Assembly (NCBI RefSeq): GCF_028206795.1 | Contig: NZ_JAQLFJ010000004.1 | Location: 130,666 to 194,665 of the forward strand | Source: Collinsella aerofaciens | Lineage (GTDB): Bacteria > Actinomycetota > Coriobacteriia > Coriobacteriales > Coriobacteriaceae | Direction of reading: 5' to 3' | Length of the DNA stretch: 64,000 nt | Part shown: one piece after another, positions 6,302 through 51,833 of the stretch | Position numbering within the stretch: position 1 is the stretch's first letter | How the letters are laid out: the number at the start of each line of letters is the position of its first letter | Notes under the pieces: model-generated | Told to the model about the DNA's origin: nothing | What the model saw: only the letters and a program-made list of their open reading frames with translations | The model's database searches: none | Translations under genes and position numbers: made by a program

Positions 6302-6313
6302 TCTTCTCAATAC

Positions 6314-6378: not shown

Positions 6379-6388
6379 TTAGGTGGGG

Positions 6389-9013: not shown

Positions 9014-9070
9014 GAGACAAGCATAAAGAATCGGCGCCCCTGTTGTGCGCCGTGGCATTAAGAGGTGCAT

Positions 9071-10333: not shown

Positions 10334-10343
10334 GAGGAAGACT

Positions 10344-10823: not shown

Positions 10824-10836
10824 GCGGTTTACCTGC

Positions 10837-10873
10837 GGCGGGGCGACCTGAACGGCTGCTCCGCCTTTGTTTT
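10837..10873 (+). terminator. Terminator after mogA
   Basis: GGCGGGGC (10837-10844) pairs with GCTCCGCC (10858-10865), followed by TTTGTTTT. Confidence 0.65.
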
Positions 10874-10912
10874 CCGCCGAAGCGACGCCGAGGTGCACGG
10901 CAACTCGAAACT

Positions 10913-10966
10913 ATATTCTCTGGCGAGAATAATTTCTCACTATCATTATTCTCGCAGAAGTATAAT
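10913..10966 (+). promoter_or_regulatory. Operator-like palindrome and -10 box upstream of modA
   Basis: GCGAGAATAAT (10923-10933) and ATTATTCTCGC (10945-10955) form a perfect 11-bp inverted repeat around TTCTCACTATC. A smaller ATTCTC-TGGC-GAGAAT overlaps its left arm. TATAAT at 10961-10966 follows at once. The palindrome covers the space where the -35 box would be, so it is well placed for a repressor of the molybdate transporter. The regulator is unknown. Confidence 0.65.
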
Positions 10967-11026
10967 CTGATTGCAGTTTAAAGCCCGCGGTGGGGTACCC
11001 GGGCACAAGGTCCGAAAGGGTTGAAT

Positions 11027-11902: not shown

Positions 11903-11932
11903 TGCGGTAGAGCACTGGATAACGATATCCTT

Positions 11933-11968
11933 GAGGGCGGGCGTTCTTGCGATCGCCCGCCCTTTTTA
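11933..11968 (+). terminator. Hairpin between modA and modB
   Basis: AGGGCGGGCG pairs with CGCCCGCCCT around TTCTTGCGAT and is followed by TTTTT. As modB and modC lie directly downstream, it is probably a partial attenuator rather than an operon end. Confidence 0.75.
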
Positions 11969-12020
11969 GATAGAAGCGGCGTACCCACAGCGCCGTTACC
12001 GTGTGTTTGAGGAGTCGCCC

Positions 12021-13502: not shown

Positions 13503-13505
13503 GCC

Positions 13506-14576
13506 ATGTCGCTCGTTCTGGATATCAAAAAGCGCTATCCCGGCTTTACTCTCGACATGCAGCTCGAGGCCGGCGAGGAGCGCGTGGCGCTGCTGGGCGC
13601 CTCGGGTTGTGGCAAGAGCTGTACGCTGCGCTGCATTGCCGGTGTGGAGACGCCTGACGAGGGCAAGATCGTCGTCAACGGCGTGACCTTTTTTGACTCG
13701 GCGGCGGGCATCAACCTGTCGCCCCAGGCGCGCAAATGCGCCCTGCTGTTCCAAAACTATCAGCTGTTTCCCAACATGACGGTGGCCGATAACGTATGTG
13801 CCGGTGTAAAGGGCGCGGGCGATGCCGCCGCGCGCAAAAAGCTCGCCGAGCGCTATCTGAGCATTTTCGGTCTAGCCGATTTTGCCGACCGCTATTCCGC
13901 ACGACTTTCGGGCGGTCAGCAGCAACGTGTGGCGCTTGCGCGCATGGTGGCGGCGCATCCGGGCATCTTTATGTTCGACGAGCCCATGAGTGCGCTCGAT
14001 GCGTACCTCAAGAGCGCCCTCGAGCAGAATATGCTCGACCTGTTCGATGTCTGCAACCGCACCGTGCTCTACGTGAGCCACGATATCGACGAGGCATGTC
14101 GCCTGTGCCAGCGTATCTGCGTGATGCACGATGGGCATGTTGAGGAGATCGGCTCCGTCGAGGACGTGGTCCGCCGTCCGCAGACGCTGGCGGCACTGCG
14201 CCTGACGGGGTGCAAGAACACAAGCCGGGCGCGCAAGGTCGGCGACGAGGAAGTCGAGGCTCTCGACTGGGGCATGAGCTTTAACGTGGGTCGCGAGGTT
14301 CCCGATACTGTGGCGTTCCTGGGCATTCGCGCAAGCTACTTCCATGTTGACAATCGCGCTGAGCGGGGGCGCAACAGCTATGATTTGCACGTGGCCCGTG
14401 TGAGCGATTCGCGCTTTGAGCGGCTGGTATTGCTGGACGTGCCGCGCGCTGATGCGCCCACGCGTCTGCAGTGGAAGGTCAACAAAGTGAACGTTGCTGC
14501 CGACGGGCTGCCGCAAGCAGGCGAGACGCTGCGCATGCACTTCGATGCGAGTAGGATCCACCTGGTTTGTCGATAG
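13506..14576 (+). CDS. modC: Molybdate ABC transporter ATP-binding protein
   Basis: 356 residues. Walker A GASGCGKS is at 31-38, the Q-loop lies in LLFQNYQLFPNMTVADNV, the signature LSGGQQQRVALARMVA is near 136, Walker B is IFMFDEPMSALD and the H-loop is YVSHDIDEA. The C-terminal 120 residues replace the classic MOP regulatory domain with a beta-rich segment that still ends in a TOBE-like strand pattern (LRMHFDASRIHLV). Together with modA and modB it makes a complete importer. The last modB codons and the modC start are nearly contiguous, which indicates coupled translation. Confidence 0.92.
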   Translation: MSLVLDIKKRYPGFTLDMQLEAGEERVALLGASGCGKSCTLRCIAGVETPDEGKIVVNGVTFFDSAAGINLSPQARKCALLFQNYQLFPNMTVADNVCAGVKGAGDAAARKKLAERYLSIFGLADFADRYSARLSGGQQQRVALARMVAAHPGIFMFDEPMSALDAYLKSALEQNMLDLFDVCNRTVLYVSHDIDEACRLCQRICVMHDGHVEEIGSVEDVVRRPQTLAALRLTGCKNTSRARKVGDEEVEALDWGMSFNVGREVPDTVAFLGIRASYFHVDNRAERGRNSYDLHVARVSDSRFERLVLLDVPRADAPTRLQWKVNKVNVAADGLPQAGETLRMHFDASRIHLVCR

Positions 14577-15005
14577 CGCCGGGTAATGCTGTCGGGGATA
14601 TAAGCCTCGGCGGCTTTGTCTTGCCGCTTGCCGAATGAGGGATGACAGACTCTTATCAATCAAGATAATTATTTATTAAACGACGGCACGCGAGGCTGTC
14701 GTACGAATGTCAACGGTGTTCGTCTGGACGATGACCGCTGATATAGTTGACCTTGACTGGTTAAGGAGGGTGCGCACATGCCGCAGACGACATACATTCG
14801 CCGCGTTGCCGCGCGCGCCCTCTATATGGCTCGGAGTCGCATATGAGCAGGTATGTTCACGGCTCCGGGAGAGACGACGCACAACTAAATAACCGATCGC
14901 AAGGCAGGTTCCCCAAAATTCCGGGTTTACGCGCGGTTGGGTTTTCGCCCCCCACCGTGCAGCAATACCGTAGCTATTCATTTTTGGTTCGAGAGGGGAA
15001 CCGCC
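14577..15005 (+). other. Long leader region before the double-cubane operon
   Basis: The 429 bases between modC and the next large gene contain an A+T-rich block (about 14650-14685, possible promoter), a small ORF with a near-consensus ribosome site (separate entry) and a GC-rich stretch without visible terminator. I see no known riboswitch core. The long untranslated distance suggests regulation of the operon starting at 15006. Confidence 0.4.
14778..14846 (+). CDS. Possible leader peptide of 22 residues
   Basis: MPQTTYIRRVAARALYMARSRI is preceded by TTAAGGAGGGTGCGCAC, one of the best Shine-Dalgarno sequences in the window. It ends with TGA 159 bases before the double-cubane protein gene. 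The peptide is basic (five Arg) with alternating hydrophobic residues and matches nothing I know. It could be a leader peptide controlling the downstream operon, a small membrane-active peptide, or chance; the ribosome site is the main argument for it. Confidence 0.4.
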   Translation: MPQTTYIRRVAARALYMARSRI

Positions 15006-16289
15006 ATGGCTGAAGAATTCGATTTCCATCCGATGTGGGAGAGCCTCGGCATGAATCTTGCCGACCACGACATGCTGCTGGGCGCCGTGGGCCAGATGTA
15101 CGGGGATATGTTCCTGACGCAGAACAATCGCCCCAAGTCCACGTCCTACCTTGATTTTGTTGCCACCAACATCCACAGCGGCCGCATTAAGGAGATGCTC
15201 GACAAGAAGGAGGCCGGCGAGGCCACCAAGATCGTCGGTTCGTTCTGCGTGTATGTGCCCGAGGAGATTGTGCTCGCCTGCGACGGTATTCCCGTGGGCC
15301 TGTGCTCGGGTGCCGACTGGGCAACGGACAAGGTCGAGGAGCACCTGCCGCGCAACACCTGTCCGCTCATCAAGAGCTTTGCCGGCTTTAAGCTGGGCGA
15401 GGTCTGCCCCTACATTGAGTCGAGTGACCTGGTGGTAGGCGAGAACACCTGCGATGGCAAGAAGAAGGCCTACGAGTTCTTTGCAACGCAAAAGAACATG
15501 TACGTCATGGATATTCCCAACGTGCACGACGAGTCTACGCTCGTGACCTGGAAGGCCGAGGTCAAGAAGCTCGCCGCCAAGATCGAGGAAGAGTGCGGCG
15601 TCAAGATTACGCCCGAGCGTCTGAAGGCTGCCGTCCACGCCGTCAATGAGAAGCGCCGCGCCTTGCAGCGCCTCGCTGCCACGCGCGCTGCCGACCCGGC
15701 GCCCATCAGTGGTCTCGACAGCCTGCTGACCGTTCAGGCCGCCTTTATGGACGACACGCCGCGTCTGACCGGAGCCATCAATGATATGGCGGCTGAGTGC
15801 GAGCAGCGTGTCGAGGCCGGCGAGGGCGTGGCGCCCAAGGGGACCAAGCGTATCCTGTACACCGGCACGCCCATGGCCGTGCCCAACTGGAAGCTGTTCA
15901 ACCTCATCGAGAAGGCCGGCGGCGTTGTGGTGGGCGAGGAGTCCTGCACGGGCTCGCGCTACTACAAGGATCTGGTTGACGAGTCCGGTGAGACGGTTGA
16001 CGAGATGCTCGATGCCATCGCCGAGCGCTACTTTAAGATCAACTGTGCCGTCTTTACGCCCAACGACCAGCGTATGAAGGATATTGTCCAGATGGCCAAG
16101 GACCTGCATGCCGACGGTATCGTCGACGTGGCCCTGCAGTTCTGCACGCTTTACGAGATGGAGTCGTTTGTCGTGGAGAAGGCCGCCGAGGAAGCCGGCA
16201 TTCCGTTTATGCACATCACGACCGACTACGCCGGCGAGGATGCAGGCCAACTGCAAACCAGGATCGAGGCTTTCTTGGAAACCATTTAG
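15006..16289 (+). CDS. Double-cubane cluster protein / 2-hydroxyacyl-CoA dehydratase family, paralogue 1
   Basis: 427 residues of the HgdB/FldB superfamily. The segment [14 protein letters not shown] and the [12 protein letters not shown] motif are the pattern of YjiM-type double-cubane cluster proteins (DCCP), which hold an [8Fe-9S] cluster and reduce small molecules at very low potential. Conserved cysteines occur near residues 80-100, around 118, 135 and 147. Compared with paralogue 2 it has about 40 extra N-terminal residues. GAGAGGGGAACCGCC precedes the ATG. The physiological substrate of DCCPs is not known, and a true dehydratase role is less likely because no CoA-transferase or second conventional subunit is nearby. 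Confidence 0.85.
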
Positions 16290-16304
16290 GGGTATCCGTT
16301 CCGG

Positions 16305-16406
16305 CGGCTTCCCCAGGCACCCGATCTTGCCGTTCAAACCGTCGCTTACGTACCAAAATACGCGGCGTTCCTCTTTCACGGCAACCTCGGGCTCCTGGGA
16401 AAGCCG
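16305..16406. repeat. Long hairpin element, family 3, copy 1
   Basis: CGGCTTCCCCAGG (16305-16317) pairs with CCTGGGAAAGCCG (16394-16406). Inner helices are CCCGA/TCGGG, TTGCCGT/ACGGCAA and an apical hairpin near TTACGTACC and ATACGCGGCG. A homologous element with compensated stems lies at 17601-17710. It fills the gap between the two double-cubane genes. Confidence 0.8.
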
Positions 16407-16443
16407 TTTCCTCGGTTGGTCAAAAAGTTTGTTAAGGAGTTAT

Positions 16444-17607
16444 ATGTCGGAAAATATGGAGCAGCCGTTGCCCAGAACGTTTGAGGAGTTCAACGAGCAG
16501 CGTAAGGCGGCGTTTATTCGCGTTAAGGATTACAAGCAGGCCGGCAACCGTCTGATCGGTTTCTTGTGCAGCTACACACCGCTCGAGATCACCGATGCCG
16601 CGGGCGCGGCGACGGTGGCGCTGTGCGGTACGTCCGACGAGGTGATCCCCGATGCCGAGAAGGTGCTGCCGGCAAACCTGTGCCCGCTCATCAAGTCGAC
16701 CTACGGATTTGCCTACTCGCAAAAGTGCCCGTTTACGTACTTTAGCGACATGATCATCGGTGAGACCACCTGCGACGGCAAAAAGAAGATGTACGAGCTC
16801 CTCAACGAGCTCAAGCGCACGCACATCCTGCATCTTCCGCAGGGCCGCGATCGCGCCTACGAGCGTGAGGGCTGGTACGAGGAATGCCGCATGCTCAAGG
16901 AGGAGCTCGAGAACTTCTACGGCATCACGATTACCGACGATGACCTGCGCGCTGCCGTTCGTCGTCGAAACCGCCTGCGTGCCGCGCAGCTGGAGATGTT
17001 TGCGCTGCAGGCCAACCAGCCGGCGGCCATGAGCGGCGTCGACCTGATGAGCACCATGTTCGCTGGTACGTTCAGCTTTGATATCGAGGCCTATACGGAG
17101 CAGCTGGAGCAAAAGGTTGCCAGGCTGCACGAAGCCTACGACGCGGGTGAGCGCCCGGTCGCGGCGGATGCCAAGCGCATCCTGATCACCGGTTGCCCGG
17201 TGGGCGGCGTGATCAACAAGATCGGTCGCACCATCGAGTCCAACGGCGGCGTGGTCGTGTGCATGGACGACTGCTCGGGCGAGCGCACGGCGGCCATGAT
17301 GATCGATCCGGATGCGCCCGATATCCTGCGCGCCATTGCCGATCGCTACCTGGACATTAACTGCTCGGTCATGACGCCAAACGACGGTCGTATGGAAAAC
17401 ACACTGGTCATGTGCGAGAAGTACCACGTCGATGGCGTTGTCGAGAGCGTGCTGCAGGCGTGCCACACCTTCAACGTTGAGAGTGCTCGTATGCAGGAGG
17501 CCATTGAGGGTGCGGGCATTCCGTACATGAAGATCGAGACCGACTATAGCAATGGCGACATGGGTCAGATCGAGACCCGAATCGCCGCCTTTATCGAGAC
17601 GCTCTAG
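16444..17607 (+). CDS. Double-cubane cluster protein (YjiM-like), paralogue 2
   Basis: 387 residues, close to E. coli YjiM (about 383). Motifs: [16 protein letters not shown] near 40-55, [40 protein letters not shown], and the C-terminal domain with [17 protein letters not shown] and MDDCSGERT. These cysteines fit ligands of the double-cubane [8Fe-9S] cluster. AAGGAGTTAT precedes ATG 16444. It is separated from paralogue 1 by a hairpin element and is followed by another copy, then the activator gene. Two paralogues might form a heterodimer like the two subunits of classic dehydratases; this is inference. Confidence 0.87.
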
Positions 17608-17710
17608 CTTCCTCAGGCACCGGATCTTGCCCCTCAAACCGTCGCTTGCGTACCAAAGTACGCTGCGCTCCTCTTTCGGGGCAATCTCCGGCACCTGAGA
17701 AACCTAGAGC
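17601..17710. repeat. Long hairpin element, family 3, copy 2
   Basis: GCTCTAG pairs with CTAGAGC, CTCAGGCACCGGA with TCCGGCACCTGAG, TTGCCCC with GGGGCAA, and TTGCGTAC-CAAA-GTACGCTG forms the tip. The central part matches copy 1 (16305-16406), while the stems differ by paired changes. The stop codon of the preceding gene is inside the left arm. Confidence 0.8.
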
Positions 17711-17752
17711 TAAGGCGCCTGAACGCTTTGATGTTTAGATTGGGAGTGAGCC

Positions 17753-18517
17753 ATGATGGGGATCGGGATCGATATCGGGTCTACGGCGGCAAAGGCTGCT
17801 GTGGTCGATGGAGAGGGTTCGGTGGCGTGGACGTGTGTGCAGCCAACCGGGTTCTCGTCGGTCGATGCTTCCGAGCGGCTGCGCGAGGCACTGGCAGCGG
17901 CCGGCTATGACGTGACGGCCGAAGATGCTCGCGTGGTCGCGACTGGCTACGGCCGTGTTGCCGTGCCCTATGCGCACAAGGTCGTGACCGAGATCACCTG
18001 CCACGGCACCGGTGCCGTGCGTCTGTTTGGTGACCATGGCACCGTGATCGATGTGGGTGGTCAGGACACCAAGGTCATCCAGCTTAAAGGCGGCCGCGTG
18101 GCCAAATTTGCCATGAACGACAAGTGCGCCGCCGGCACGGGGCGCTTTTTGGAGATCATGGCCGACCGCCTGGGCATTACCCAGCAGCAGATGGCAGACC
18201 TCGCCCGCACCGGCGAGCCTACCAAGATTTCCAGCATGTGCACGGTGTTTGCCGAAAGCGAGGTCATCAGCCTGATCGGTCGCGGCGAGCCGCGCGAGAA
18301 CATTGCGCGTGGCGTGATCGACAGCGTGGTCTCGCGCGTGGCGACCATGGCCGGGCAGGCCGCGGGCGCTCCATACTACCTGACCGGTGGCCTGTGCGAG
18401 AATGCCTTCGTGGTGGAGCGGTTGGGCGAGCTACTGGGGTCGCCGGTGACCACCTCGCCCCAGGCTCGCTTTGCCGGTGCCATCGGCGCGGCGATTCGCG
18501 CCGCCGCCTTGGCCTAG
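17753..18517 (+). CDS. ATP-dependent activator of double-cubane/dehydratase proteins (YjiL/HgdC-like)
   Basis: 254 residues of the BadF/BadG ASKHA ATPase fold. It uses ATP hydrolysis to push an electron from a dimer-bridging [4Fe-4S] cluster into its partner. The cluster cysteines are C125 in KCAAGTGRFLE and C163 in SSMCTVFAESEV. The phosphate loops are GIGIDIGSTAAK at the N-terminus and VIDVGGQDTK near 98-107. GGGAGTGAGCC precedes the ATG. Its place directly after two DCCP genes makes them its likely partners. The glycosyltransferase gene starts 14 bases after the stop. Confidence 0.93.
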   Translation: MMGIGIDIGSTAAKAAVVDGEGSVAWTCVQPTGFSSVDASERLREALAAAGYDVTAEDARVVATGYGRVAVPYAHKVVTEITCHGTGAVRLFGDHGTVIDVGGQDTKVIQLKGGRVAKFAMNDKCAAGTGRFLEIMADRLGITQQQMADLARTGEPTKISSMCTVFAESEVISLIGRGEPRENIARGVIDSVVSRVATMAGQAAGAPYYLTGGLCENAFVVERLGELLGSPVTTSPQARFAGAIGAAIRAAALA

Positions 18518-18531
18518 GGGTGTACCGCGAC

Positions 18532-19749
18532 ATGCGCATCCTCAATATCTCGGCACAAAAACCAGATAGCACCGGCAGCGGCACCTACCTTGCCGCGCTC
18601 GTGCGCGAACAGATCGAGACGGGGCATCGCTCCGCCGTGCTTTGCGGCGCGGCTCCGGGTGATACCCAAGGCGAGCTGGACCGACGTGCTGCCGTGTTTG
18701 CCGTACCGTTCGAGTCGCCCGAGCTGCCGTTTCCCATCTGCGGTATGTCCGATGTCATGCCCTATCCCTCTACACGCTATCGTGATCTGACGCCTTCGAT
18801 GCTCAAGGCATTTGAGCGGGCATTTGCTGCTGCAATCGATCGGGCGGTGGCTGAGTTTCGGCCCGATCTGGTGCTCTGCCATCACCTGTATCTGGTGACC
18901 GCATTGGCGCGCGAGTGTGTCCGGGGCGTGCCAGTTGTTGCAGTGTGCCATTCGACCGACCTGCGCCAGCTGCGTTCGCATGCGCTCGAGCGCGATCGCA
19001 TCGTAAGTGCGGTTCGTCGGCTCGATGCCGTCTTTGCGCTCCATGCTGAGCAGGCTGAGCAGATTAGCCTGGTGTGCGGCGTCGATACCGATCGCATCCA
19101 CGTGATTGGGACGGGCTACGACCATCGCGTCTTCTGTCGCGACGCAAGCGTGGCGAGGCAGCCGGGATCGCTTGTGTACGTGGGCAAGATTTGCTTTAAA
19201 AAGGGCGTCGAGTCGCTGGTTCGAGCCATGTCATTGCCGATTGACGATGACGTCCGCCCATCTGGCTTGGTACTTGTGGGCGGCCGCGGGGACGATGCCG
19301 AGTACGCGCGTATCGAGCGCTTGGTCGCGGCCTCGGATGTGCCGGTGACGCTGGCGGGGCGCCTGGATAGCGATGGACTCGTGCATGCCTACCGCAGTTC
19401 CGACGTCTTTGTGCTGCCTTCGTTTTACGAAGGTCTGCCGCTCGTGACGATCGAGGCCCTCGCGTGCGGCTGCAAAGTTGTGGCGACTGATTTGCCCGGC
19501 GTTCGTCCCTGGATGGAGGCGATGCTTCCCGGTGCTCCCGTGACGTGGGTGGCGTCGCCGCGTATGACGGATGTCGACACGCCCGTGGCGGCCGACCTTC
19601 CGTTGTTTGAGCGTGCGCTGGCAGATGCTATTGCGCAGGCGCTTGCGGCTCCGCCTTCGACGTTCGAGCCGTCGGCGGTCTCTTGGGAAGCGTGCCTGGG
19701 GCGTATACTTAAAGTCGTTGATTTGTTGGAAGGGGGTTCGTATGGCTAA
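18532..19749 (+). CDS. GT4-family glycosyltransferase overlapping selD
   Basis: 405 residues of GT-B fold. The N-terminal acceptor domain starts MRILNISAQKPDSTGSGTY, a glycine-rich loop typical of GT4 enzymes. The donor domain shows VYVGKICFKKGVESLV, VLVGGRGDDAEYARIE and the EX7E motif in FYEGLPLVTIEALACG, which binds the nucleotide-sugar. No membrane helix is seen. Its last 8 bases overlap the selD start (ATG 19742), so its translation is tied to selenophosphate synthase. No cell-wall or capsule genes are nearby. A role in making a selenium-containing sugar, by analogy with SenB-SenC of selenoneine synthesis, is possible but unproven. The precise substrate is unknown. Confidence 0.85.
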   Translation: MRILNISAQKPDSTGSGTYLAALVREQIETGHRSAVLCGAAPGDTQGELDRRAAVFAVPFESPELPFPICGMSDVMPYPSTRYRDLTPSMLKAFERAFAAAIDRAVAEFRPDLVLCHHLYLVTALARECVRGVPVVAVCHSTDLRQLRSHALERDRIVSAVRRLDAVFALHAEQAEQISLVCGVDTDRIHVIGTGYDHRVFCRDASVARQPGSLVYVGKICFKKGVESLVRAMSLPIDDDVRPSGLVLVGGRGDDAEYARIERLVAASDVPVTLAGRLDSDGLVHAYRSSDVFVLPSFYEGLPLVTIEALACGCKVVATDLPGVRPWMEAMLPGAPVTWVASPRMTDVDTPVAADLPLFERALADAIAQALAAPPSTFEPSAVSWEACLGRILKVVDLLEGGSYG

Positions 19750-20791
19750 GGACACCATGAGGCTCACGTCTATGACGGCCGCGAGCGGTTGAGCCGCTAA
19801 GTTGGCTCCTGGAGCCCTCGCCCAGGTCCTGGGCGATTTACCCAATGTGCATAACGACAACTTGCTCGTGGGGTTTGATACCTCCGACGATGCGAGCGTC
19901 TTTCGCGTTGGCGATAACTTGGGTCTCGTGCAGTCCATCGACTTCTTCCCGCCGATGGTCGACGACCCGTTTCTATTTGGCCAGATTGCCGCGGCCAACT
20001 CGCTGTCGGACATCTACGCCATGGGCGGGCGGCCGAGCCATGCCATGAACCTACTCTGCATACCCAGTTGTCTGGGCATCGAGGTTGCCGGTCAGATTCT
20101 GGCGGGCGGCGCCGACAAGTGCGTCGAGGCGGGTTGCTCCATCGCGGGCGGCCATACCATCAACGACGACGAGCCCAAGTACGGCCTGTCCGTGAGCGGC
20201 TTTGTCGCGCTCGACCGCATGCTCGCCAACAGCGGCGCACGCGTGGGCGATGTTCTGCTGCTGACCAAGGCGATCGGCTCGGGCATCATCACCACGGCCA
20301 TTAAGGGCGAGCTTATCGAGCAGGACGAGGCCGCAGCCATGTTTGACTCGATGCGCACCCTCAACGAGGCGCCGATTCGTCTGGCCGAGGGGCTCGAACT
20401 TCACGGCTGCACCGACATTACGGGCTTTGGCCTGATCGGGCACGCGTGCGAGATGGCCGAGGGCTCGGGCGTGCAAGTTGAGCTTGCGTCGGGATCGGTG
20501 CCGCTCTTTGATCAGGTGCTCGACATGGCGCGTCTGGGCATTATCCCCGCGGGCTCCTACCGCAACCAGGACTTCTTTGGCCCGCGTGTGGCTGCCGACG
20601 AGGATCTGGAGCCGGGCATGCTGGATGCGCTGTACGATCCGCAGACGTCTGGTGGCCTACTCATCGCGGCACCTGCTGCCGATGTTGATGAGCTTGCGTG
20701 CCGTCTACATGCTGAAGGACGTATCGCCGCCGTCGTCGGTCGCGTGTGCGTGCCGGTGCCAGGTGGTCCTGCCGTTCGCGTTGTGCATTAA
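19742..20791 (+). CDS. selD: Selenophosphate synthase containing selenocysteine
   Basis: 349 residues when the in-frame TGA at 19790-19792 is read as selenocysteine. SelD makes selenophosphate from selenide and ATP. Sec is residue 17 in ASGUAAKLAP, exactly where E. coli SelD has catalytic Cys17; the following lysine matches Lys20. Downstream motifs of the AIRS-like fold are FDTSDDASVF, QSIDFFPPMVDDPFLFGQIAAANSLSDIYAMGG and GGHTIND. AGGGGGTTCGT precedes the ATG, which lies inside the glycosyltransferase gene. A hairpin suitable as a SECIS element follows the TGA. A simple caller would start the gene after the TGA and lose the active site. Confidence 0.95.
19804..19835 (+). promoter_or_regulatory. 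Candidate bacterial SECIS element in selD
   Basis: Two small hairpins follow the UGA: GGCTC-CTG-GAGCC (19804-19816) and CGCCCAG-GTC-CTGGGCG (19819-19835). The second starts 26 bases after the UGA and has a G/U-containing loop, within the distance window expected for SelB binding. Confidence 0.6.
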
Positions 20792-20807
20792 GGAAAACCG
20801 TTTATGC

Positions 20808-20838
20808 GACCGCCTACTGTTCTGGGCGGTCCCTTTTG
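20808..20838 (+). terminator. Hairpin between selD and yedF
   Basis: GACCGCC (from 20808) pairs with GGGCGGTC around TACTGTTCT and is followed by CCTTTTG. It is a weak terminator or processing site; yedF continues downstream on the same strand. Confidence 0.45.
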
Positions 20839-20850
20839 AAAGGAAAAACT

Positions 20851-21477
20851 ATGTCTACCAAGATTGAAGTCAATGCCATGGGCGATGCCTGCCCGCTGCC
20901 CGTCGTCAAGACGCTCAAAGCTCTGAAGCAGCTCGATGGCGAGGGCACCGTCGTGACCTCGGTCGATAACGAGACCGCCGTCAAGAACATCTCCAAGATG
21001 GCGCAGGAGAAGGGTTGCACGGCCTCGGTCGAGAAGGTTTCTGACGCCGAGTGGCACGTGACCGTGGCGACCTCTGGCGCCGTTGCCGTGGCCGATCCCG
21101 AGCAGGATGGCGCTGTCTTCTGTAATGCCAGCGCCGGCAAGGGCAAGCTCGTCATTTCCGTCTACACCGACTGCATGGGCCGCGGCGACGATGAGCTGGG
21201 CCACAAGCTCATGAAGGCCTTCATCTTTGCCGTGACGCAGCAGGAGGAGCTGCCCGCGACTATGCTGTTTTACAACGGCGGTGCCAAGCTCACCGTCGAG
21301 GGCTCGCCGGTGCTCGATGACCTGAAGGGCTTGGCGGAGCAGGGTGTCGAGATTCTCACCTGCGGTACCTGCCTGGACCACTTTGACATTAAGGACCAGC
21401 TTGCGGTGGGCGAGGTCACCAACATGTACGTGATCGTGGAGAAGATGGAGCAGGCCGTGCGCGTCGTGCGCCCGTAG
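20851..21477 (+). CDS. yedF: Selenium metabolism protein YedF
   Basis: 208 residues: an N-terminal TusA/SirA-like domain with the sulfur- or selenium-carrying Cys14 in DACPLPVVKT, then a DsrE-like domain ending with CGTCLDHFDI near 175. This two-domain form is the selenium-linked YedF family, found in genomes with selD. GAAAGGAAAAACT precedes ATG 20851. It sits between selD and a DUF3343 gene and probably carries persulfide or perselenide to a downstream acceptor. The acceptor is not known. Confidence 0.9.
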   Translation: MSTKIEVNAMGDACPLPVVKTLKALKQLDGEGTVVTSVDNETAVKNISKMAQEKGCTASVEKVSDAEWHVTVATSGAVAVADPEQDGAVFCNASAGKGKLVISVYTDCMGRGDDELGHKLMKAFIFAVTQQEELPATMLFYNGGAKLTVEGSPVLDDLKGLAEQGVEILTCGTCLDHFDIKDQLAVGEVTNMYVIVEKMEQAVRVVRP

Positions 21478-21496
21478 CGTATTGGTTGGAGTTGCC

Positions 21497-21748
21497 ATGA
21501 GGGAGAAGCGCCCGGCGCTTGTCATCACGTTTCCCACCACGGCGGCCGCCATGGGTTGCGAGTCCCTGTGCATCGAGCGCGGTCTTCCCGGGCGGACGAT
21601 TCCCGTGCCCGGGGAGGTCGCTGCCGGCTGCGGTTTGGCGTGGAAGGCGTTGCCTGTCGATGAGGAGCTGCTGCGCGGCGAACTCGCCGCGGCGGGCGTT
21701 CCCACTGAGGGCTATACCGTGATTAATATGTGGGAGGTCGTGCGATGA
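21497..21748 (+). CDS. DUF3343 protein, selenium-cluster type
   Basis: 83 residues. FPTTAAAMGCESLCIERGLPG and PVPGEVAAGCGLAWK are the DUF3343 signatures, with cysteines at 21, 25 and 45. The family is small and cytoplasmic, usually near selD, yedF and EF2568-type aminotransferases, and is suspected of handling sulfur or selenium. The stop overlaps the start of the next gene (ATGA at 21745-21748), a clear sign of coupled translation. GGTTGGAGTTGCC precedes the ATG. A second DUF3343 protein with a Cys-rich extension is encoded at 49748. Confidence 0.85.
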   Translation: MREKRPALVITFPTTAAAMGCESLCIERGLPGRTIPVPGEVAAGCGLAWKALPVDEELLRGELAAAGVPTEGYTVINMWEVVR

Positions 21749-22884
21749 TCTACCTGGATAACGCGGCGACGACCATGCACAAGCCGCAGACGGTCATCGA
21801 TGCCGTGACGCAGGCGATGTGCTCGCTCGGCAATGCTGGGCGCGGTGCCACCTCGGGTGCGCTCGATGCGGCACGTACCATCCACGGCTGCCGCGCCAAG
21901 CTTGCGCGCTTGCTGGGCTGCCCGCGTGCTGACCATGTTTGTTTTACGCCCAACTCCACCGCGGCGCTCAACACCGTCATCAATGGCGTGGTGCGCCCCG
22001 GCGACCGTGTGGTCACAACGGTGCTCGAGCACAACTCCGTACTGCGTCCGCTCAACCGCCTGGCGGCAGAGCAGGGTGTGACGGTTGAGCATGCGGGCTG
22101 TGATACCAACGGCGTGCTCGACTACGACGAGCTCGAGCGGCTTGTCACGCCCGGTACGCGTGCTGTGGTGGTGACGCACGCCTCCAATGTGACCGGCAAC
22201 GCGGTCGACATTGCGCGCGTGGCTGCCATCGCGCATGCGGCCGGCGCGCTGGTGATCGTCGATGCTTCGCAGTCTGCCGGCACGGCGAAGATTGACATGG
22301 ATGCCATGGGGCTCGACGTCGTGTGCTTTACCGGTCACAAGGGGCTCATGGGTCCGCAGGGGACCGGCGGCCTGGCCGTGGCGGAGGGCATTGACGTGGC
22401 TCCGTGGGCCATGGGCGGCACGGGCGTGCACAGCTTCGATGCGCTGCAGCCGCTTGGGTGGCCCACGCGCCTTGAGGCGGGCACGCTCAACGGTCATGGC
22501 ATCGCGGGACTTTCCGCTGGTCTCGACTTTATCGAGGCCCAGGGTGGGGTCGAGGCGATTGCTGCCCACGAGCGTGCGCTCGCTGATCGCTTCCTTGCCG
22601 GTGTGCGCAAGATTCCGGGGATTAAGCTCTACGGTGCCTTTGACCAGCAGGCGCGCTCTGCGATTGTGTCGCTCAACGTAGCCGATATCGACTCTGCCGA
22701 GATCTCGGATGCGCTCATGCAAGGGTGGGGGATTTCGACGCGCCCCGGCGCCCATTGCGCCCCGCTCATGCACCGTGCGCTGGGGACCGAGCGCCAGGGC
22801 GTCGTCCGCTTCTCGTTTGGGTATTTCAACACTACCGAAGAAGTCGACACGGCTATCGATGCTCTGTGCGATTTAGCCTGCTAA
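21745..22884 (+). CDS. Class V aminotransferase, cysteine desulfurase family (EF2568-like)
   Basis: 379 residues. IYLDNAATTMHKP opens the protein, H96-N97 lie in VLEHNSVLRPL, D173 and Q176 in IVDASQSAG, and the PLP lysine is K199 in FTGHKGLMGPQG. A cysteine in RPGAHCAPLMH near 338 could be the persulfide carrier. It fits the desulfurase-like subfamily that travels with selD, rather than housekeeping IscS or SufS. It may release sulfur or selenium from (seleno)cysteine for YedF and SelD. It is the last gene of the run, followed by a terminator. Confidence 0.88.
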   Translation: MIYLDNAATTMHKPQTVIDAVTQAMCSLGNAGRGATSGALDAARTIHGCRAKLARLLGCPRADHVCFTPNSTAALNTVINGVVRPGDRVVTTVLEHNSVLRPLNRLAAEQGVTVEHAGCDTNGVLDYDELERLVTPGTRAVVVTHASNVTGNAVDIARVAAIAHAAGALVIVDASQSAGTAKIDMDAMGLDVVCFTGHKGLMGPQGTGGLAVAEGIDVAPWAMGGTGVHSFDALQPLGWPTRLEAGTLNGHGIAGLSAGLDFIEAQGGVEAIAAHERALADRFLAGVRKIPGIKLYGAFDQQARSAIVSLNVADIDSAEISDALMQGWGISTRPGAHCAPLMHRALGTERQGVVRFSFGYFNTTEEVDTAIDALCDLAC

Positions 22885-22907
22885 AGCTGCTAGACCGTTT
22901 ATACTTG

Positions 22908-22938
22908 CGGGACGGGTGTATTTGCCCGTCCCGTTTTT
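22908..22938 (+). terminator. Terminator of the selD-aminotransferase operon
   Basis: CGGGACGGG pairs with CCCGTCCCG around TGTATTTG and is followed by TTTTTG. It separates the selenium cluster from brnQ. Confidence 0.88.
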
Positions 22939-22961
22939 GTTTCGACCCGAAAGGTGTGCCT

Positions 22962-24320
22962 ATGGCCTCATCCGCTCCGCGCGGCCTGCGCTCCGACCAT
23001 GTCGTTACCGTCGGCATTGCGCTGTTCTCGATGCTCTTTGGCGCCGGTAACCTCATCATTCCGCCGTTGCTGGCGCTCCAGGCCGGCACGGCCACACCGC
23101 TTGCCATGGTTGGCTTTTTGATTGCCGCCATCGGCCTGCCCGTCATGGGCTTTATCGCCGTCGCGCTCGCTGGCACGGCCCGCGAGCTTGCCGGCCGCGT
23201 GCATCCCAAGTTTGGCGAATTCTTCGTTGCGGCGGTCTATCTGGCCATCGGCCCGTGCCTGGCTATTCCGCGCACGAGCTCCACGGCGTTTGAGATGCTG
23301 GTACCGTTGCTGCCCGAGGGTGTTTCGCTTGGCACCGCGCGCTTGGTCTTCGCCGTCGCCTTCTTCGTGGTCGCATTTGCACTTACGCTGCGCCCCGGCG
23401 TCATCACGCGCGTGCTCGGTCGCATTACTGGCCCCGCGCTCATTGCGCTCATCGTACTCGTTGTCGGCGCCGCCGTGATTTCGCCGCTGGGACCGGCTGC
23501 TGCCCCGCAAGCTCCCTATGATGCCGGCGCTGCGGTCCAAGGCTTCTTGACCGGCTACCAGACCATGGACCTGCTTGCGTCGCTCGCCTTCGGCATCATC
23601 ATCGCCGAGACCATTCACGAGCTGGGTGTTACCGATGACAAGCGCGTGGCCTTTGAGATTTCGCGCTCCGGTGTGATCGCCGGCGTGCTCATGGCCATCA
23701 TCTATTGCGGCTTGGCTCTTGCCGGCATGCAGCTCGGCACCGTGATGCCCGACGCCACCAACGGCGCTGCCATCCTTGCTCGCTCGGCCTCCATGCACTT
23801 TGGCCTTGCCGGCACGGTTGTGGTCTTCGCCATCTTCTTCCTCGCCTGCATGAACGTGTGCATTGGCCTCATTAGTTGCTGCGCGCGCTATTTCTGTGAG
23901 ACGTACGTGGTTGAAGGGGGAGCGGAGGTCTCCGAGGAGGCCATGCGCCGCCCCTTCGCGATTCTCGCCTTTGTGTTCGCGGCATTTTCGTGCGTGCTCT
24001 CCAACGTGGGCCTCGACGTGATCCTTATGTTCTCGGTGCCCATGCTCAACGCCTTGTATCCCGTCGCCATCGTGCTGGTTCTCATGGGTTTGGTACACGG
24101 CTTTTGCGACGCTCATCCGCAGGTGTGGGTCTGGGTCGGCGGTGTGGTTGCCGTGCAGAGCGTGATCACCTCGGTCCGCGATGCGTTCTTTGTGGGAACG
24201 TGGCTGCCGTTTGATGCGCTACCCCTGGCAGACATCGGTGCCGCGTGGGCGCCGGTTGCCGTGGTTGCCTTTGTGATCGGCCTGCTCCATAGTCGTTTTG
24301 TTGCACATTCGAGGAGCTAG
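22962..24320 (+). CDS. brnQ: Branched-chain amino acid carrier BrnQ
   Basis: 452 residues with about 12 membrane helices. It imports leucine, isoleucine or valine with sodium or protons. The N-terminal segment FSMLFGAGNLIIPPLLALQAG is the signature of the LIVCS family, and GTARELAGRVHPKFGEFF and IPRTSSTAFE follow as expected. CGAAAGGTGTGCC precedes ATG 22962. It has its own position after a terminator and is followed by the tRNA promoter. No functional link to the selenium genes is evident. Confidence 0.93.
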   Translation: MASSAPRGLRSDHVVTVGIALFSMLFGAGNLIIPPLLALQAGTATPLAMVGFLIAAIGLPVMGFIAVALAGTARELAGRVHPKFGEFFVAAVYLAIGPCLAIPRTSSTAFEMLVPLLPEGVSLGTARLVFAVAFFVVAFALTLRPGVITRVLGRITGPALIALIVLVVGAAVISPLGPAAAPQAPYDAGAAVQGFLTGYQTMDLLASLAFGIIIAETIHELGVTDDKRVAFEISRSGVIAGVLMAIIYCGLALAGMQLGTVMPDATNGAAILARSASMHFGLAGTVVVFAIFFLACMNVCIGLISCCARYFCETYVVEGGAEVSEEAMRRPFAILAFVFAAFSCVLSNVGLDVILMFSVPMLNALYPVAIVLVLMGLVHGFCDAHPQVWVWVGGVVAVQSVITSVRDAFFVGTWLPFDALPLADIGAAWAPVAVVAFVIGLLHSRFVAHSRS

Positions 24321-24616: not shown

Positions 24617-24650
24617 CATATACATGCCGGGGACCCCACATCCCCTCCTA

Positions 24651-24717
24651 AGTTGCGGTGAAATACGGACTGTTTTTCGGCTTTTACGGCCCAGGTAGTC
24701 CGTATTTCACCGCAACT
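24651..24717. repeat. Palindromic repeat, family 1, copy 2
   Basis: AGTTGCGGTGAAATACGGAC pairs with its complement ending CACCGCAACT around a variable loop. It is preceded by CCCCTCCTA, a flank shared with other copies. Between it and 24902 I see no gene or known site. Confidence 0.88.
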
Positions 24718-25904: not shown

Positions 25905-25932
25905 CGAAATCGTTCGCAGCCAATCTTTAATA

Positions 25933-25999
25933 AGTTGCGGTGAAATACGGACTGTTGAGGCCTTTATAGGCATGAAACAGTCCGTATTTCACCGCAACT
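25933..25999. repeat. Palindromic repeat, family 1, copy 3
   Basis: AGTTGCGGTGAAATACGGAC and its complement flank a variable loop; GAGGAGGGG follows. The copies at 24651 and 25933 bracket the orphan gene between them. Confidence 0.88.
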
Positions 26000-44895: not shown

Positions 44896-44959
44896 TTGAC
44901 GCAACTGATTGATTCGACTGATTCGCGATAGTTTCAGCCCTGTTTTTGAAAGGCCGCAC

Positions 44960-46417
44960 ATGAGCGATAGCCAGAACATGTCCGATGAGGTGCGCGCCCG
45001 CCTGCGCGCCATTCCCTCCGTCAACGAGCTGCTTGCCGAGTGGCCGGTAGTGAAGGCGGCGGGGGAGACCTGCGACGCGGTGGTGCATGCCGCCGTCACG
45101 GCCGAGCTCGACGAGGAGCGCTCCGCGATTCGTGTTGGCGCCGCCCCGCGTTCCAAGCGCGAGCTGGCCTCGGCCATCGAGTGGCGTGCGCATCGCTCTG
45201 CGCTGCCGAGCCTGCGTCCCGCCGTCAACGCCACGGGTGTGGTTATCCATACCAACTTGGGTCGCGCCCCGCTCGCGGAATCAGCTGCCAAAGCCGTGGC
45301 CGAGGTCGCGCGCGGGTATAGCACACTCGAGTACAGTGTCGACACCTGTTCGCGCGGGTCGCGCAAGGAGCACGCCGCGCAGCTGATCCGCTCACTCACC
45401 GGTGCCGAGGACGCGCTCGTGGTCAACAACAATGCCGCCGCGGTGCTGCTGGTGCTTGCCACCCATGCCGCGGGTAAAGAGGTTATCGTCAGCCGCGGCG
45501 AGCTTGTCGAGATTGGCGGCAGCTTCCGCATCCCCGATGTCATGGCGGCTTCGGGCGCCAAACTCGTCGAGGTCGGCGCCACCAACCGCACGCATTTGGG
45601 CGACTACGAGCGCGCCATCACGCCCGATACGGCGATGATCCTTAAGGTCCATCCTTCCAACTACCGTATCGAGGGTTTCCACGAGGAGGTAGGTTCTCGG
45701 GAGCTTGCGGCGCTTGCTCACAAGCATGGTCTACTGTTCTACGAGGACCAGGGGTCGGGCGCGCTCCTGCCCGATGACATCTTGGTGCGCGGCGGCGAGG
45801 AGACCACGCCGACCTCGGTTGCCGCCGGGCTCGACATCGTGTCGTGCTCGGGCGATAAGCTGCTTGGTGCTGCGCAGGCGGGCATCATCATGGGCCGTCG
45901 CGATCTGGTCCAGGCCTGCGGGTCGCATCCGCTTATGCGTGCCCTGCGTCCGGGCAAGCTCGCACTGGCGGCGCTCGAGGCTACACTGCGCATCTACATG
46001 GACGGGGCGGATGTGGCCCATCGCGAGGTGCCGGTGCTCAACATGCTCACGCTTCCGCAGGCTCATCTGGAGCGTCGCGCACGCAAGCTGCGCGAGCTGA
46101 TGGTGACGGGCCTCGATAAGGCTGGCTGCCCGTGTGCCGTGCAGGTGGAAATCGTCGAGGAGTCGTCGACTCCCGGCGGCGGCTCGCTGCCTACCGTCGA
46201 GCTGCCCACGATGTGCGTGGCCGTCTGCCCGGTCGACGGGCGCCTGTCTGTCGACGCGCTCAAGCGCTCGCTCGTCCAAGATTTCGACACGCCGGTCGTC
46301 ACGCGCGCCTCGCACGATCGCGTCCTGTTTGATGTGCGCACGCTCGTGGGCGACCGCGATATCGAGACGGCGGCGTCGACGCTTTCCGCGTGCGTTGCCA
46401 AGGCGGCGCGCCGATGA
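44960..46417 (+). CDS. selA: L-seryl-tRNA(Sec) selenium transferase
   Basis: 485 residues (E. coli 463). It converts Ser-tRNA(Sec) to Sec-tRNA(Sec) with selenophosphate. LRPAVNATGVVIHTNLGRAPL near 85-105 and the PLP lysine K300 in SCSGDKLLGAAQAG are diagnostic. TTTTTGAAAGGCCGCAC precedes the ATG. Its stop overlaps the selB start (ATGA). With selB, selC and selD it forms a complete selenocysteine system in this window, needed by FdhF and SelD. Confidence 0.97.
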   Translation: MSDSQNMSDEVRARLRAIPSVNELLAEWPVVKAAGETCDAVVHAAVTAELDEERSAIRVGAAPRSKRELASAIEWRAHRSALPSLRPAVNATGVVIHTNLGRAPLAESAAKAVAEVARGYSTLEYSVDTCSRGSRKEHAAQLIRSLTGAEDALVVNNNAAAVLLVLATHAAGKEVIVSRGELVEIGGSFRIPDVMAASGAKLVEVGATNRTHLGDYERAITPDTAMILKVHPSNYRIEGFHEEVGSRELAALAHKHGLLFYEDQGSGALLPDDILVRGGEETTPTSVAAGLDIVSCSGDKLLGAAQAGIIMGRRDLVQACGSHPLMRALRPGKLALAALEATLRIYMDGADVAHREVPVLNMLTLPQAHLERRARKLRELMVTGLDKAGCPCAVQVEIVEESSTPGGGSLPTVELPTMCVAVCPVDGRLSVDALKRSLVQDFDTPVVTRASHDRVLFDVRTLVGDRDIETAASTLSACVAKAARR

Positions 46418-48381
46418 GTGGGGTCGAAGCGTTGGTGGAATGCCCTGTTATCGTTGGAACGGCGGGCCACGTCGACCACGGTAAGTCGGCGCTGATTGAG
46501 GCGTTGACCGGCAAGAATCCCGACCGCTTGGAGGTCGAGCGTCGCCGCGGTATGACCGTTGAGCTCGGCTTTGGCGAGTTGGCCCTGCCGAGCGGCAAGA
46601 TCGTCGGCCTGGTCGACGTGCCGGGCCACGCGCATTACTTGCGTGCCATGGTGCAGGGCGCCACGGGCATCGATGTAGCCGTGCTGGTGGTTTCGGCCGT
46701 CGAGGGTGTGATGCCGCAGACCCGCGAGCACGTACATGTGCTGGAGCTGTTGGGCGTCACGCACATGGTGGTCGCGCTGACGATGTGCGACCTGGCCGAT
46801 GCCGAGATGACCGAGCTTGCCGAGCTCGATGTCGATGACTTTTTGTCAGGTACCGTGTTTGCAGGCGCGCCGATCGTGCCCGTGTCGTCCAAGACCGGCG
46901 AGGGGATCGATGGCCTGCTGGCTACGCTCGACGAGCAGGTTGCCGCTTGCTGGGATGCCTGCCGTGCCCGTGCCGAGCTCACCGATGCCGCGCCGCGTCT
47001 GCCGATTGACCGCTGCTTTACGATCAAGGGCGTCGGTACTGTCGTGACGGGAACGTTGCACGATGCGCCGGTTGCGGTGGGCGACGATCTCGTCGCCCTG
47101 CCGTCGCGTACGGTCTGTCGTGTGCGCGGGATTCAGGTGCATGGCGATACGCCGCGAGCACTGCCCGGACAGCGCGTGGCGCTCAACCTGGTTGGTGACG
47201 GTGTCGCGGCGCTTGACCGTGGCGAGATGCTGGGCGTGGCGGACCGCTTTGGTCAGTCGTTGCGCTTTATGATGACGTTCACCTACCTGGGCCGCGAGGG
47301 CGCCAAGCCGCGCGTGCTCGAGTCGGGCGCGCGCGTGCATGTGATGGCCGGCACGGCCGAAGTCGTGGGTCGCATCATGCTTTTGGAGGGCGAGGCCCCC
47401 ATGGCGGTGGGCGAGATCCGTACCGTGCAGGTGCGCTTGGAGGAGCCGCTGCCGCTGCGAGCCGGAGACCATGCCGTGGTGCTGTCGTATTCGCCCGTTA
47501 TGCTCATTGGCGGCGGGCGTGTGCTGCTTTCGCGCTGTCGTCGCTCGCGCGAGCTTTCGGCGGGGGAGCGTACGCTGCTTGCAGCACTTGAGGCCGGCGA
47601 TGTCGTTACTGGTGTGGACGCGTGGCTGGCGCTGCAGGCGTTGCCGGTCGTGGCTGCCGACGTTGCCGCGGCGCTGGATATGGCTGCCGGAGATGTTGAC
47701 GCTGCGCTGCGCGCGCTGGTGGGCCAGGGCACGGTGTGTGAGCTTACCGCGGGCGACGTGGCGCTGTACACGAGTACCGCCGCGCTCGACGCCGCGATGG
47801 ATGCCTTGGCGACGACCCTGTCGGCCATGCACGCGGCGGCTCCCAAGGAGACGGGCTTTACGCCCGGTGCCGTTGCCCATGCTGCCTGGCCTGCTGCCGA
47901 CGATGCCGTTGCCGCGGCCTTGATTGCCGAGGGCTGCTCGCGCGGCGTTTGTGCTGCCGAAGGCGCCGAGGTGTTCGACCCACACTCCGCAGCCGCCGCT
48001 GCGCGTGTGGTGCGAGAGGCTTGCGAGCGGATTGTCGCGCTGCTTGACGAGGCCGGCCTGGACGCACCGGTGCTTCCCGAGGTGGGTGAACAGTTGCAGC
48101 TCGGCCGCGACACCATGACGCGTGCCCTGCGCGAGCTTTCGCTCAACCGCTCGATCGTTAAGGTCGAGCGCGACGTTGCCCTGTCCGCTGCCGCCGAGGC
48201 CCATGCGCGTGAGCTCGTCGCCGCCGCCATTGAGGCAGCCGGCGGCGCTGCCACCACGAGCGTGCTGCGCGAGGCCCTGGGCGTGTCGCGCAAACGCGCC
48301 ATCAGCATCTTGGAGCATCTGGACGCCGTACGCTTTACGGTGCTCGACAAGGAGGCCGGCGGCCTGAGGTCCCTGCGCTAG
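46414..48381 (+). CDS. selB: Selenocysteine-specific elongation factor SelB
   Basis: 655 residues (E. coli 614). The GTPase domain opens with GTAGHVDHGKSALIEALTG, followed by RGMTVELGF (G2) and DVPGHAHYLRAM (G3). The Asn-Lys-x-Asp motif is replaced by TMCDL, as in other SelB proteins. Two beta-barrel domains follow, then a C-terminal set of winged helices (about 400-655) that binds the SECIS hairpin. Its start overlaps the selA stop by 4 bases. tRNA-Sec lies 450 bases downstream, across a cluster of palindromes. Confidence 0.96.
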   Translation: MSGVEALVECPVIVGTAGHVDHGKSALIEALTGKNPDRLEVERRRGMTVELGFGELALPSGKIVGLVDVPGHAHYLRAMVQGATGIDVAVLVVSAVEGVMPQTREHVHVLELLGVTHMVVALTMCDLADAEMTELAELDVDDFLSGTVFAGAPIVPVSSKTGEGIDGLLATLDEQVAACWDACRARAELTDAAPRLPIDRCFTIKGVGTVVTGTLHDAPVAVGDDLVALPSRTVCRVRGIQVHGDTPRALPGQRVALNLVGDGVAALDRGEMLGVADRFGQSLRFMMTFTYLGREGAKPRVLESGARVHVMAGTAEVVGRIMLLEGEAPMAVGEIRTVQVRLEEPLPLRAGDHAVVLSYSPVMLIGGGRVLLSRCRRSRELSAGERTLLAALEAGDVVTGVDAWLALQALPVVAADVAAALDMAAGDVDAALRALVGQGTVCELTAGDVALYTSTAALDAAMDALATTLSAMHAAAPKETGFTPGAVAHAAWPAADDAVAAALIAEGCSRGVCAAEGAEVFDPHSAAAAARVVREACERIVALLDEAGLDAPVLPEVGEQLQLGRDTMTRALRELSLNRSIVKVERDVALSAAAEAHARELVAAAIEAAGGAATTSVLREALGVSRKRAISILEHLDAVRFTVLDKEAGGLRSLR

Positions 48382-48406
48382 ATCGGCCACCCCGCCCCAC
48401 CTCCTC

Positions 48407-48834: not shown

Positions 48835-48931
48835 GGGAACGGATGGGCTCCGGTGGGCTCCGCGGTCCTCAAAACCGTTGCGAGGCGTGCAAAACGTCTT
48901 GGATGTGTTCGATTCACATACGTTCCCGCCA
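48835..48931 (+). tRNA. selC: tRNA-Sec (TCA)
   Basis: 97 nt with encoded CCA. Acceptor GGGAACG pairs with CGTTCCC. A six-pair D stem GGGCTC-CGGT-GGGCTC (with G-U pairs), the anticodon loop CCTCAAA with TCA, a long variable arm GAGGCGT-GCAAA-ACGTCTT and the T arm ATGTG-TTCGATT-CACAT are all typical of tRNA-Sec. Standard tRNA scans tuned to canonical tRNAs can miss it, and an overlapping open frame hides it. It is downstream of selA-selB. Confidence 0.94.
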
Positions 48932-51813: not shown

Positions 51814-51833
51814 TATTCCGGAGGACTCCTCAT

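Follow-up and report, generated by a model that had tools for sequence, protein, structure and literature searches.

The [8Fe-9S] cofactor of double-cubane cluster proteins (DCCPs) had, until 2025, been described from no other group, and the biological function of these proteins has been called unknown (PMC11971306). Papers cited by PMC number, together with Haft and Self (2008) and Zhang (2008), were available in part, and statements about them refer to those parts. The DCCP of Carboxydothermus hydrogenoformans, a species with a known DCCP reductase, has been solved (6ENO, 7YYL). In this work, we analysed a 64,000 nucleotide stretch of Collinsella aerofaciens DNA, here called the window. Eight genes, all on one strand, span positions 15006-22884 of the window. 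They encode two YjiM-like DCCPs, a YjiL/HgdC-type activase, a GT4 glycosyltransferase, the selenophosphate synthetase SelD, YedF, a DUF3343 protein and an EF2568-type aminotransferase. We take YjiM and YjiL to be the names of the E. coli counterparts. With moderate confidence, we regard the row as a selenium gene cluster, where the DCCPs and activase supply selenide for SelD and GT4 moves selenium onto a sugar. A contribution of DCCP to selenium supply is likely, because the row is shared with selenium genes and 148 of 154 DCCP genomes, over the two classes surveyed, also carry selD.

Several described systems resemble this arrangement. As in C. hydrogenoformans, the DCCPs belong to family NF040772, share eight cysteines and have an activase gene adjacent; here, however, two DCCP genes lie in tandem, and the genes for SelD, YedF, carrier and lyase share their row. 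For Slackia heliotrinireducens, the tabulated selenium neighbours include activase and HGD-D genes (Lin 2015, PMC5322559 Table 1). Activase, DUF3343, selenocysteine (Sec) lyase, YedF and HGD-D have neighbouring locus numbers, and a glycosyltransferase, Shel_25140, is numbered beside YedE (PMC5322559). These are STRING entries, with HGD-D and the glycosyltransferase left uninterpreted in the part available, whereas here SelD, GT4 and DCCP occupy one row and co-occurrence with selD was counted. Clusters for orphan SelD and selenium-dependent molybdenum hydroxylases also bring together YedF, an EF2568-type lyase and SelD, and were profiled against selD by the same logic as used here (Haft and Self 2008; Zhang 2008). 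Unlike our row, DCCP and GT4 are not mentioned in the available parts of those reports (PMC2276186, PMC2432076). In type I mlp clusters, genes for DCCP and its reductase lie close to selenium genes, and DCCP has been provisionally linked to selenium metabolism, without a reaction (PMC10418091). Our locus differs, since neither an Mlp methyltransferase nor a corrinoid protein is among the profiled genes of 9065-24320 (the remaining genome was not searched). Finally, SenB, which synthesizes the selenosugar in selenoneine biosynthesis, is likewise a glycosyltransferase linked to the gene of a selenophosphate synthetase. SenB forms a C-Se bond from selenophosphate and a UDP-sugar, and its reaction from selenophosphate is published (PMC10891094). 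SenB-like genes are found mainly in beta-proteobacteria (PMC10891094), whereas the GT4 family occurs in Coriobacteriia and Clostridia-type genomes.

The original prediction, made from the sequence alone, held that no described pathway joins DCCPs to selenophosphate. This was nearly right. No reaction is in print, but the neighbours in PMC5322559 and the provisional link in PMC10418091 were already there. In the literature as available, we found no explanation of DCCP in selenium metabolism and no description of the GT4 family. Similarly, the selenium role of DCCP is left unexplained in the parts consulted of PMC2276186, PMC2432076, PMC9312934, PMC7306483, PMC6262375 and PMC10134865.

The genes of the row all lie on the forward (+) strand. 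The first two encode DCCP1 (15006..16289, 427 amino acids) and DCCP2 (16444..17607, 387 amino acids), which score 490.4 and 491.9 bits against NF040772 (curated cut-off 350). They are 47% and 39% identical, respectively, to the C. hydrogenoformans DCCP (6ENO/7YYL), and an alignment places eight cysteine columns in common between DCCP1, DCCP2 and the solved chain. Because the family cut-off is exceeded and these cysteines are shared, both proteins are predicted to carry the cluster. The ATP-dependent activase follows (17753..18517, 254 amino acids), with 233.9 bits against TIGR00241 (cut-off 125.4) and 192.8 bits against PF01869. Next is the GT4 glycosyltransferase (18532..19749, 405 amino acids), from a family that co-occurs with selD; it matches PF13692 and PF00534, the latter with 64.4 bits against a cut-off of 26.4. 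SelD (19742..20791, 349 codons) scores 362 bits against TIGR00476 (cut-off 125). Its codon 17 is an in-frame TGA, at 19790-19792, in the context SG-U-AAK, and so it has Sec at position 17. YedF (20851..21477, 208 amino acids; TIGR03527, 213.1 bits, cut-off 110) has TusA-like and DsrE-like domains, with CPLP and CGTC motifs present. The DUF3343 protein (21497..21748, 83 amino acids) belongs to a family now named 'putative Se/S carrier protein-like' (PF11823, 64.5 bits, Pfam gathering cut-off 25), and is called the carrier below. Last is the EF2568-type enzyme (21745..22884, 379 amino acids), a pyridoxal phosphate-dependent class V aminotransferase and candidate selenocysteine lyase. It scores 418.8 bits against TIGR01977 (cut-off 377). 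Against the selenocysteine lyase SclA profile (NF040779) it reaches 358 bits, under the cut-off of 525. Hence, in the profile search, both DCCPs, the activase, SelD, YedF, the carrier and the EF2568-type enzyme were all above cut-off. The gaps across the row are 154, 145, 14, -8, 59, 19 and -4 bases. The one-strand row of eight genes had been predicted, and is confirmed; the five gaps listed at that time (14, -8, 59, 19 and -4) were exact, and those of 154 and 145 bases had gone unlisted.

Gene order was compared in 39 close relatives, 24 of them from one genus. SelD was above cut-off in 27 of the 39 and DCCP in 23, all within the 27. In the genus, each of the 13 genomes with a Sec-type SelD retains the order DCCP2-activase-(GT4)-SelD-YedF-carrier-lyase, and 12 of these also have DCCP1. 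We conclude that this order is more than chance, because every one of the 13 preserves it. Six other members of the genus have a cysteine (Cys)-type SelD and another arrangement, YedF-lyase-carrier-SelD. In five of the six, DCCP and activase are in the stretch around SelD; in G009, DCCP is on another contig.

Co-occurrence of DCCP and SelD was counted in 396 Coriobacteriia and in the class of Claveliimonas bilis (G407; 196 genomes). Note that the genomes are related and that the Fisher statistics given ignore kinship. In Coriobacteriia, SelD is in 241 genomes, DCCP is above cut-off in 134, and 128 have both (Fisher 4e-28). For the class of G407, SelD is in 44 genomes and DCCP in 20, all 20 of which have SelD. 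The result is 19 of 19 when the centre genome, chosen for its GT4, is left out. Within one genus, DCCP is found in 27 of 28 genomes with SelD and in none of 12 without. Among 14 named control genomes, only E. coli and M. jannaschii exceed the SelD cut-off, and the same two alone exceed the DCCP cut-off. An internal control was provided by ten genomes (eight Coriobacteriia and two others) having only sub-cut-off relatives of DCCP, some of which may be fragments. These genomes were excluded from the DCCP counts, and SelD is in three of the ten. The eight Coriobacteriia were selected by E-value, and their number agrees with the overall tally.

Logically, the association of DCCP and GT4 with selD could reflect shared ancestry and an anaerobic lifestyle instead of function. 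Genomes within one class are related, the counts are not corrected for the tree, and many genomes with SelD have no DCCP. Even so, we consider this explanation very improbable. The pattern holds within a single genus (27/28 versus 0/12), in a second class (20/20) and in the two controls with SelD; sub-cut-off relatives do not track selD (3/10). The conserved linkage, and the co-occurrence with selD, support the original prediction where it put double-cubane proteins in selenium metabolism ahead of selenophosphate use.

DCCP gene neighbourhoods outside the genus were inspected at 40 hand-picked loci of Coriobacteriia, from 107 such genomes. One, L287, has no DCCP and was excluded, leaving 39; G036 and G180 were chosen with prior knowledge of them. 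For the class of G407, all 20 DCCP genomes were taken. Over both sets, several of the fetched stretches end at contig ends. An activase is present in 37/39 and 17/20 of these loci, respectively. In G180 (L286), the activase is placed divergently from DCCP, and no SelD match was found at E 1e-60. The recurring core consists of DCCP, activase, YedF, carrier and lyase. This core is joined to YqeC/YqeB in seven genomes of a single genus, g13 (L260, L263, L273, L280, L282, L283 and L285), and to SelD or SelA/SelB in five genera (L258, L262, L265, L271, L281, L289 and L290). In the class of G407, L240 and L244 have the order YqeC-YqeB-YedF-SelD-DCCP-activase. The presence of YqeC and YqeB marks selenium-dependent molybdenum hydroxylases (Haft and Self 2008). 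Because the core is constant and the end use (SelA/SelB/SelD or YqeB/YqeC) varies, these loci suggest that the core acts ahead of the branch, making or delivering selenide or selenophosphate before selenophosphate is used.

These neighbourhoods bear on a second explanation, in which DCCP and activase serve as electron donor or maturase of selenium or molybdenum enzymes, such as formate dehydrogenase and selenium-dependent hydroxylases, and not in supply. In the window, ModABC flanks the row on one side, and on the other a carrier gene and two tRNAs separate it from a formate-hydrogenlyase cluster; in the seven g13 genomes, DCCP adjoins YqeC. However, the inner partners of DCCP are the selenium lyase and the carriers, a set that does not differ between YqeB/YqeC and SelA/SelB/SelD loci. 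A donor or maturase role is, in our opinion, improbable.

How might the row supply selenide? In the scheme that we favour, the EF2568-type lyase would free selenium as enzyme-bound Se(0), and YedF and the PF11823 carrier would relay it. A place for DUF3343 in such a relay has been proposed (Lin 2015, PMC5322559). The activase would hydrolyse ATP and load low-potential electrons onto the [8Fe-9S] cluster of DCCP. The loaded cluster may then generate selenide by reducing either the relayed selenium or an organic selenium compound. Formation of selenophosphate by SelD is established. Here, SelD would convert the selenide for use in Sec, and elsewhere for selenium-molybdenum hydroxylases; the window contains SelA, SelB, tRNA-Sec and a Sec-containing formate dehydrogenase. 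Where a strain possesses GT4, as a minority do, the enzyme could join selenophosphate or selenide with a nucleotide sugar, as SenB does. The resulting selenosugar would be stored, exported or used in detoxification.

DCCP might instead act at an earlier step, by reductive cleavage of C-Se bonds in organic selenium (methylated selenides, selenomethionine or selenosugars). The analogy is with the nitrogenase-like MarHDK, which cleaves C-S bonds, and the product would feed the lyase and carriers. DCCP genes occur in clusters tied to methyl-selenide metabolism (PMC10418091), and a thiouridine desulfidase has been placed partly in the same superfamily (PMC11971306). Lyase and carrier genes next to DCCP also fit an organic selenium source. 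Against this, the profiled genes around the row include no methyltransferase or corrinoid protein, as described above. We view this earlier step as rather unlikely.

The fourth gene of the row raises a separate question. Members of its GT4 family have the motifs AQKPDxTGSG, GMSDxMPY, TRYRD, HHLY and HSTDxRQ, and the nearest named records to the window protein are from Collinsella (97-98% identity). Structure prediction gave, with high confidence, a GT-B fold (predicted local distance difference test score, pLDDT, 93.7), closest to those of GlgM, sucrose-phosphate synthase, MshA and BshA. These four enzymes use small acceptors, often phosphorylated or acidic. Identity with SenB was considered and rejected: the protein scores 20.7 bits against TIGR04348, where the cut-off is 300, and the motif differs too. 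Thus, SenB has EGGAHV (PMC10891094) and GT4, by eye, EG[LM]PL; EGGAHV is in none of 19 GT4 family members, which have EG[LM]PL at the position matched by eye. SenB is also absent among the 13 sequence matches and 50 fold-comparison rows listed, an absence that is no test of identity. By analogy, the GT4 protein is a candidate for another selenium glycosyltransferase, a second one distinct from SenB.

The GT4 family is in 57 of the 396 Coriobacteriia, of which 54 have SelD (Fisher 5e-10), 50 have SelA and 38 have DCCP. In the class of G407, where SelD is in 44 of 196 genomes, GT4 is in ten, all with SelD (9/9 without the centre genome). Of 80 GT4 loci, 36 are not titled Coriobacteriia, including L201, titled only 'bacterium'. 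SelD was tested in 34 of these, with L178 and L194 left out, and was found in 31, with GT4 mostly unlinked to selenium genes. Distances were measured by tblastn and kept all 57 and all 80 loci, since a simple open reading frame picker missed GT4 in 19/80; adjacency was counted in 54 loci, excluding L049, L052 and L132, which had no whole GT4 call. In Coriobacteriia, SelA, SelB, SelD, YedF, YedE or DCCP is no more than 10 kb from GT4 in 42/57 genomes, and no more than 3 kb away in 37/57. The gene orders are varied. For instance, L100 has SelD-GT4-SelA-SelB-YedF, GT4 overlaps the lyase gene by 4 bases in L095, and GT4 adjoins YedE in L134. Six Coriobacteriia with SelD and GT4 have no SelA, and YqeC is present in all six. 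One of these, L099, has the order YedF-YqeB-XdhC-ModABC-MoaA-MoaC-MOSC-x-MoaB-GT4, and these gene clusters recur in identical order in L050. In G190 and G222, which belong to one genus, SelA and GT4 are present and no SelD match was found at E 1e-60. A model in which GT4 makes a seleno-metabolite gains weight, because the family tracks selD where it is unlinked and in genomes with two selenium uses.

An ABC importer resembling 2-aminoethylphosphonate systems lies beside GT4 in 10/57 Coriobacteriia and 5/34 other loci. Its solute-binding protein, permease and ATPase were seen in L095, L101, L108, L111, L148, L149, L151, L195, L206 and L216-L218, and in L095, L101 and L111 the importer is among SelD or SelA/SelB genes. 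The importer is a candidate for uptake of a selenium compound or selenosugar. Two other leads were set aside. A desulfidase-like partner (cluster c60), beside GT4 outside Coriobacteriia, had no Pfam match. Activase-GT4 fusions were not used as evidence; among the best 120 of 3219, six two-domain proteins are listed (P0001, P0006-P0009 and P0013). Two of the six were inspected: the junction of P0001 runs via a frame-shifted activase end, and in P0013 a deletion removes the GT4 start.

Not every count favours a selenium cluster with a selenium glycosyltransferase, and those that follow weigh against it. DCCP is missing from 113 of the 241 Coriobacteriia with SelD, and from 24 of the 44 such genomes in the class of G407. 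Because so many genomes with SelD have no DCCP, DCCP is an option in selenium use and not a need, and is rarely found without selenium use. Six of the 134 DCCP Coriobacteriia show no SelD (G133, G142, G146, G165, G180 and G364); five are less than 90% complete and G180 is 99% complete. At the DCCP loci outside the genus, one of SelA, SelB, SelD, YedF, YedE, YqeB or YqeC is in the stretch in 19/39 Coriobacteriia and in only 5/20 of the class of G407. GT4 is missing from 187/241 Coriobacteriia with SelD and from 34/44 in the class of G407. Of the 13 genus genomes with Sec-type SelD, four have GT4 and nine do not, and in rows without it the activase-SelD gap is approximately 90-130 bases (tblastn ends). 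Outside Coriobacteriia, a core selenium gene, DCCP both times, is within 10 kb of GT4 in 2/34 loci, and GT4 can there adjoin thymidylate synthase, the acetolactate synthase small subunit or an ABC importer. Three of the 57 GT4 Coriobacteriia have no SelD (G105, G190 and G222). In G105 (L138, C1:232127-233095), SelA is missing as well and GT4 is interrupted by an internal stop; hence, the family seems to decay on loss of selenium use.

Could GT4 then be a bystander that acts on no selenium compound, namely an ordinary glycosyltransferase for small acceptors, carried along with accessory metabolic islands? Its optional presence in the genus, its rare linkage to core selenium genes outside Coriobacteriia, where an importer is sometimes the neighbour, and its nearest folds, all ordinary GT4 enzymes, would fit. 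However, SelD is in 54/57, 31/34 and 10/10 GT4 genomes, versus 241/396 and 44/196 overall, and in Coriobacteriia GT4 is found in Sec as well as YqeB contexts, with numerous gene orders. We rate the bystander role as somewhat unlikely. Since strains without GT4 retain the rest of the row, we place the glycosyltransferase on a side branch of the selenium cluster. Linkage in close relatives, on which the original prediction had staked its model, thus divides: the DCCP-SelD part was kept (13/13), but GT4 was missing from 9/13 otherwise similar rows. Overall, that interpretation is partly supported.

The surroundings of the row contain further selenium and molybdenum genes. One flank is moeA-moaB-modABC. 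On the other are a branched-chain amino acid carrier, two tRNA genes and then the formate-hydrogenlyase cluster. There, the formate dehydrogenase alpha subunit gene (27859-30063) has an in-frame TGA (NCART-U-HGP), and hydrogenase-4 type genes and FocA are next. Further along the forward strand are SelA (44909..46417; TIGR00474, 519 bits), SelB (46390..48381; TIGR00475, 275.8 bits) and tRNA-Sec (48835..48931).

The two large spacers of the row, 154 bases between DCCP1 and DCCP2 and 145 bases between DCCP2 and activase, each contain one palindromic hairpin of approximately 96 nucleotides (16307..16402, folding z -7.3, and 17607..17702, folding z -8.5; both forward strand). The copies are 85% alike. 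A terminator scan flagged neither hairpin, and neither spacer had an Rfam match that would point to a known riboswitch. The first-spacer palindrome is at the same place in the 13 Collinsella loci inspected. In L039, L045, L046 and L094, the second spacer has different, shorter palindromes instead, as though elements of this kind had been exchanged. Because the second spacer of some relatives bears other palindromes, the simpler reading is that the hairpins are repeat elements within the row. A terminator-like hairpin closes the row on the forward strand (22907..22934), with 12 pairs, a loop of 4 and the T-rich tail TTTTGTTT; region-wide, the scan found 13 sites of this kind where 8.7 would be expected. 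Upstream of DCCP1 is a weak promoter-like site (14642..14669, forward strand, 10/12 matches), not significant alone, since the region has 3 sites where 2.7 would be expected. Separately, a 69-nucleotide palindrome (GTTGCGGTGAAATA...) has five copies, at 6311-6379, 24649-24717, 25931-25999, 48405-48473 and 51833-51901, and the non-reference copies are 67-83% like the reference copy.

In its fullest form, our proposal is that the double-cubane protein is the ATP-driven, selenide-making step for Sec and for selenium-molybdenum enzymes, and that, in Coriobacteriia and Clostridia, the AQKPDxTGSG GT4 enzymes are a second, SenB-independent class of selenium glycosyltransferase with a selenosugar product not yet described. 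That both parts hold together is a tentative suggestion, and doubtful as a whole. If the GT4 step is true, a selenium sugar predicted by no pathway found in print would be among the products of gut bacteria, as far as the available parts of that literature extend. For DCCPs, the tie to selD, across two classes and two selenium uses, offers a narrow and testable answer on function, E. coli K-12 included.

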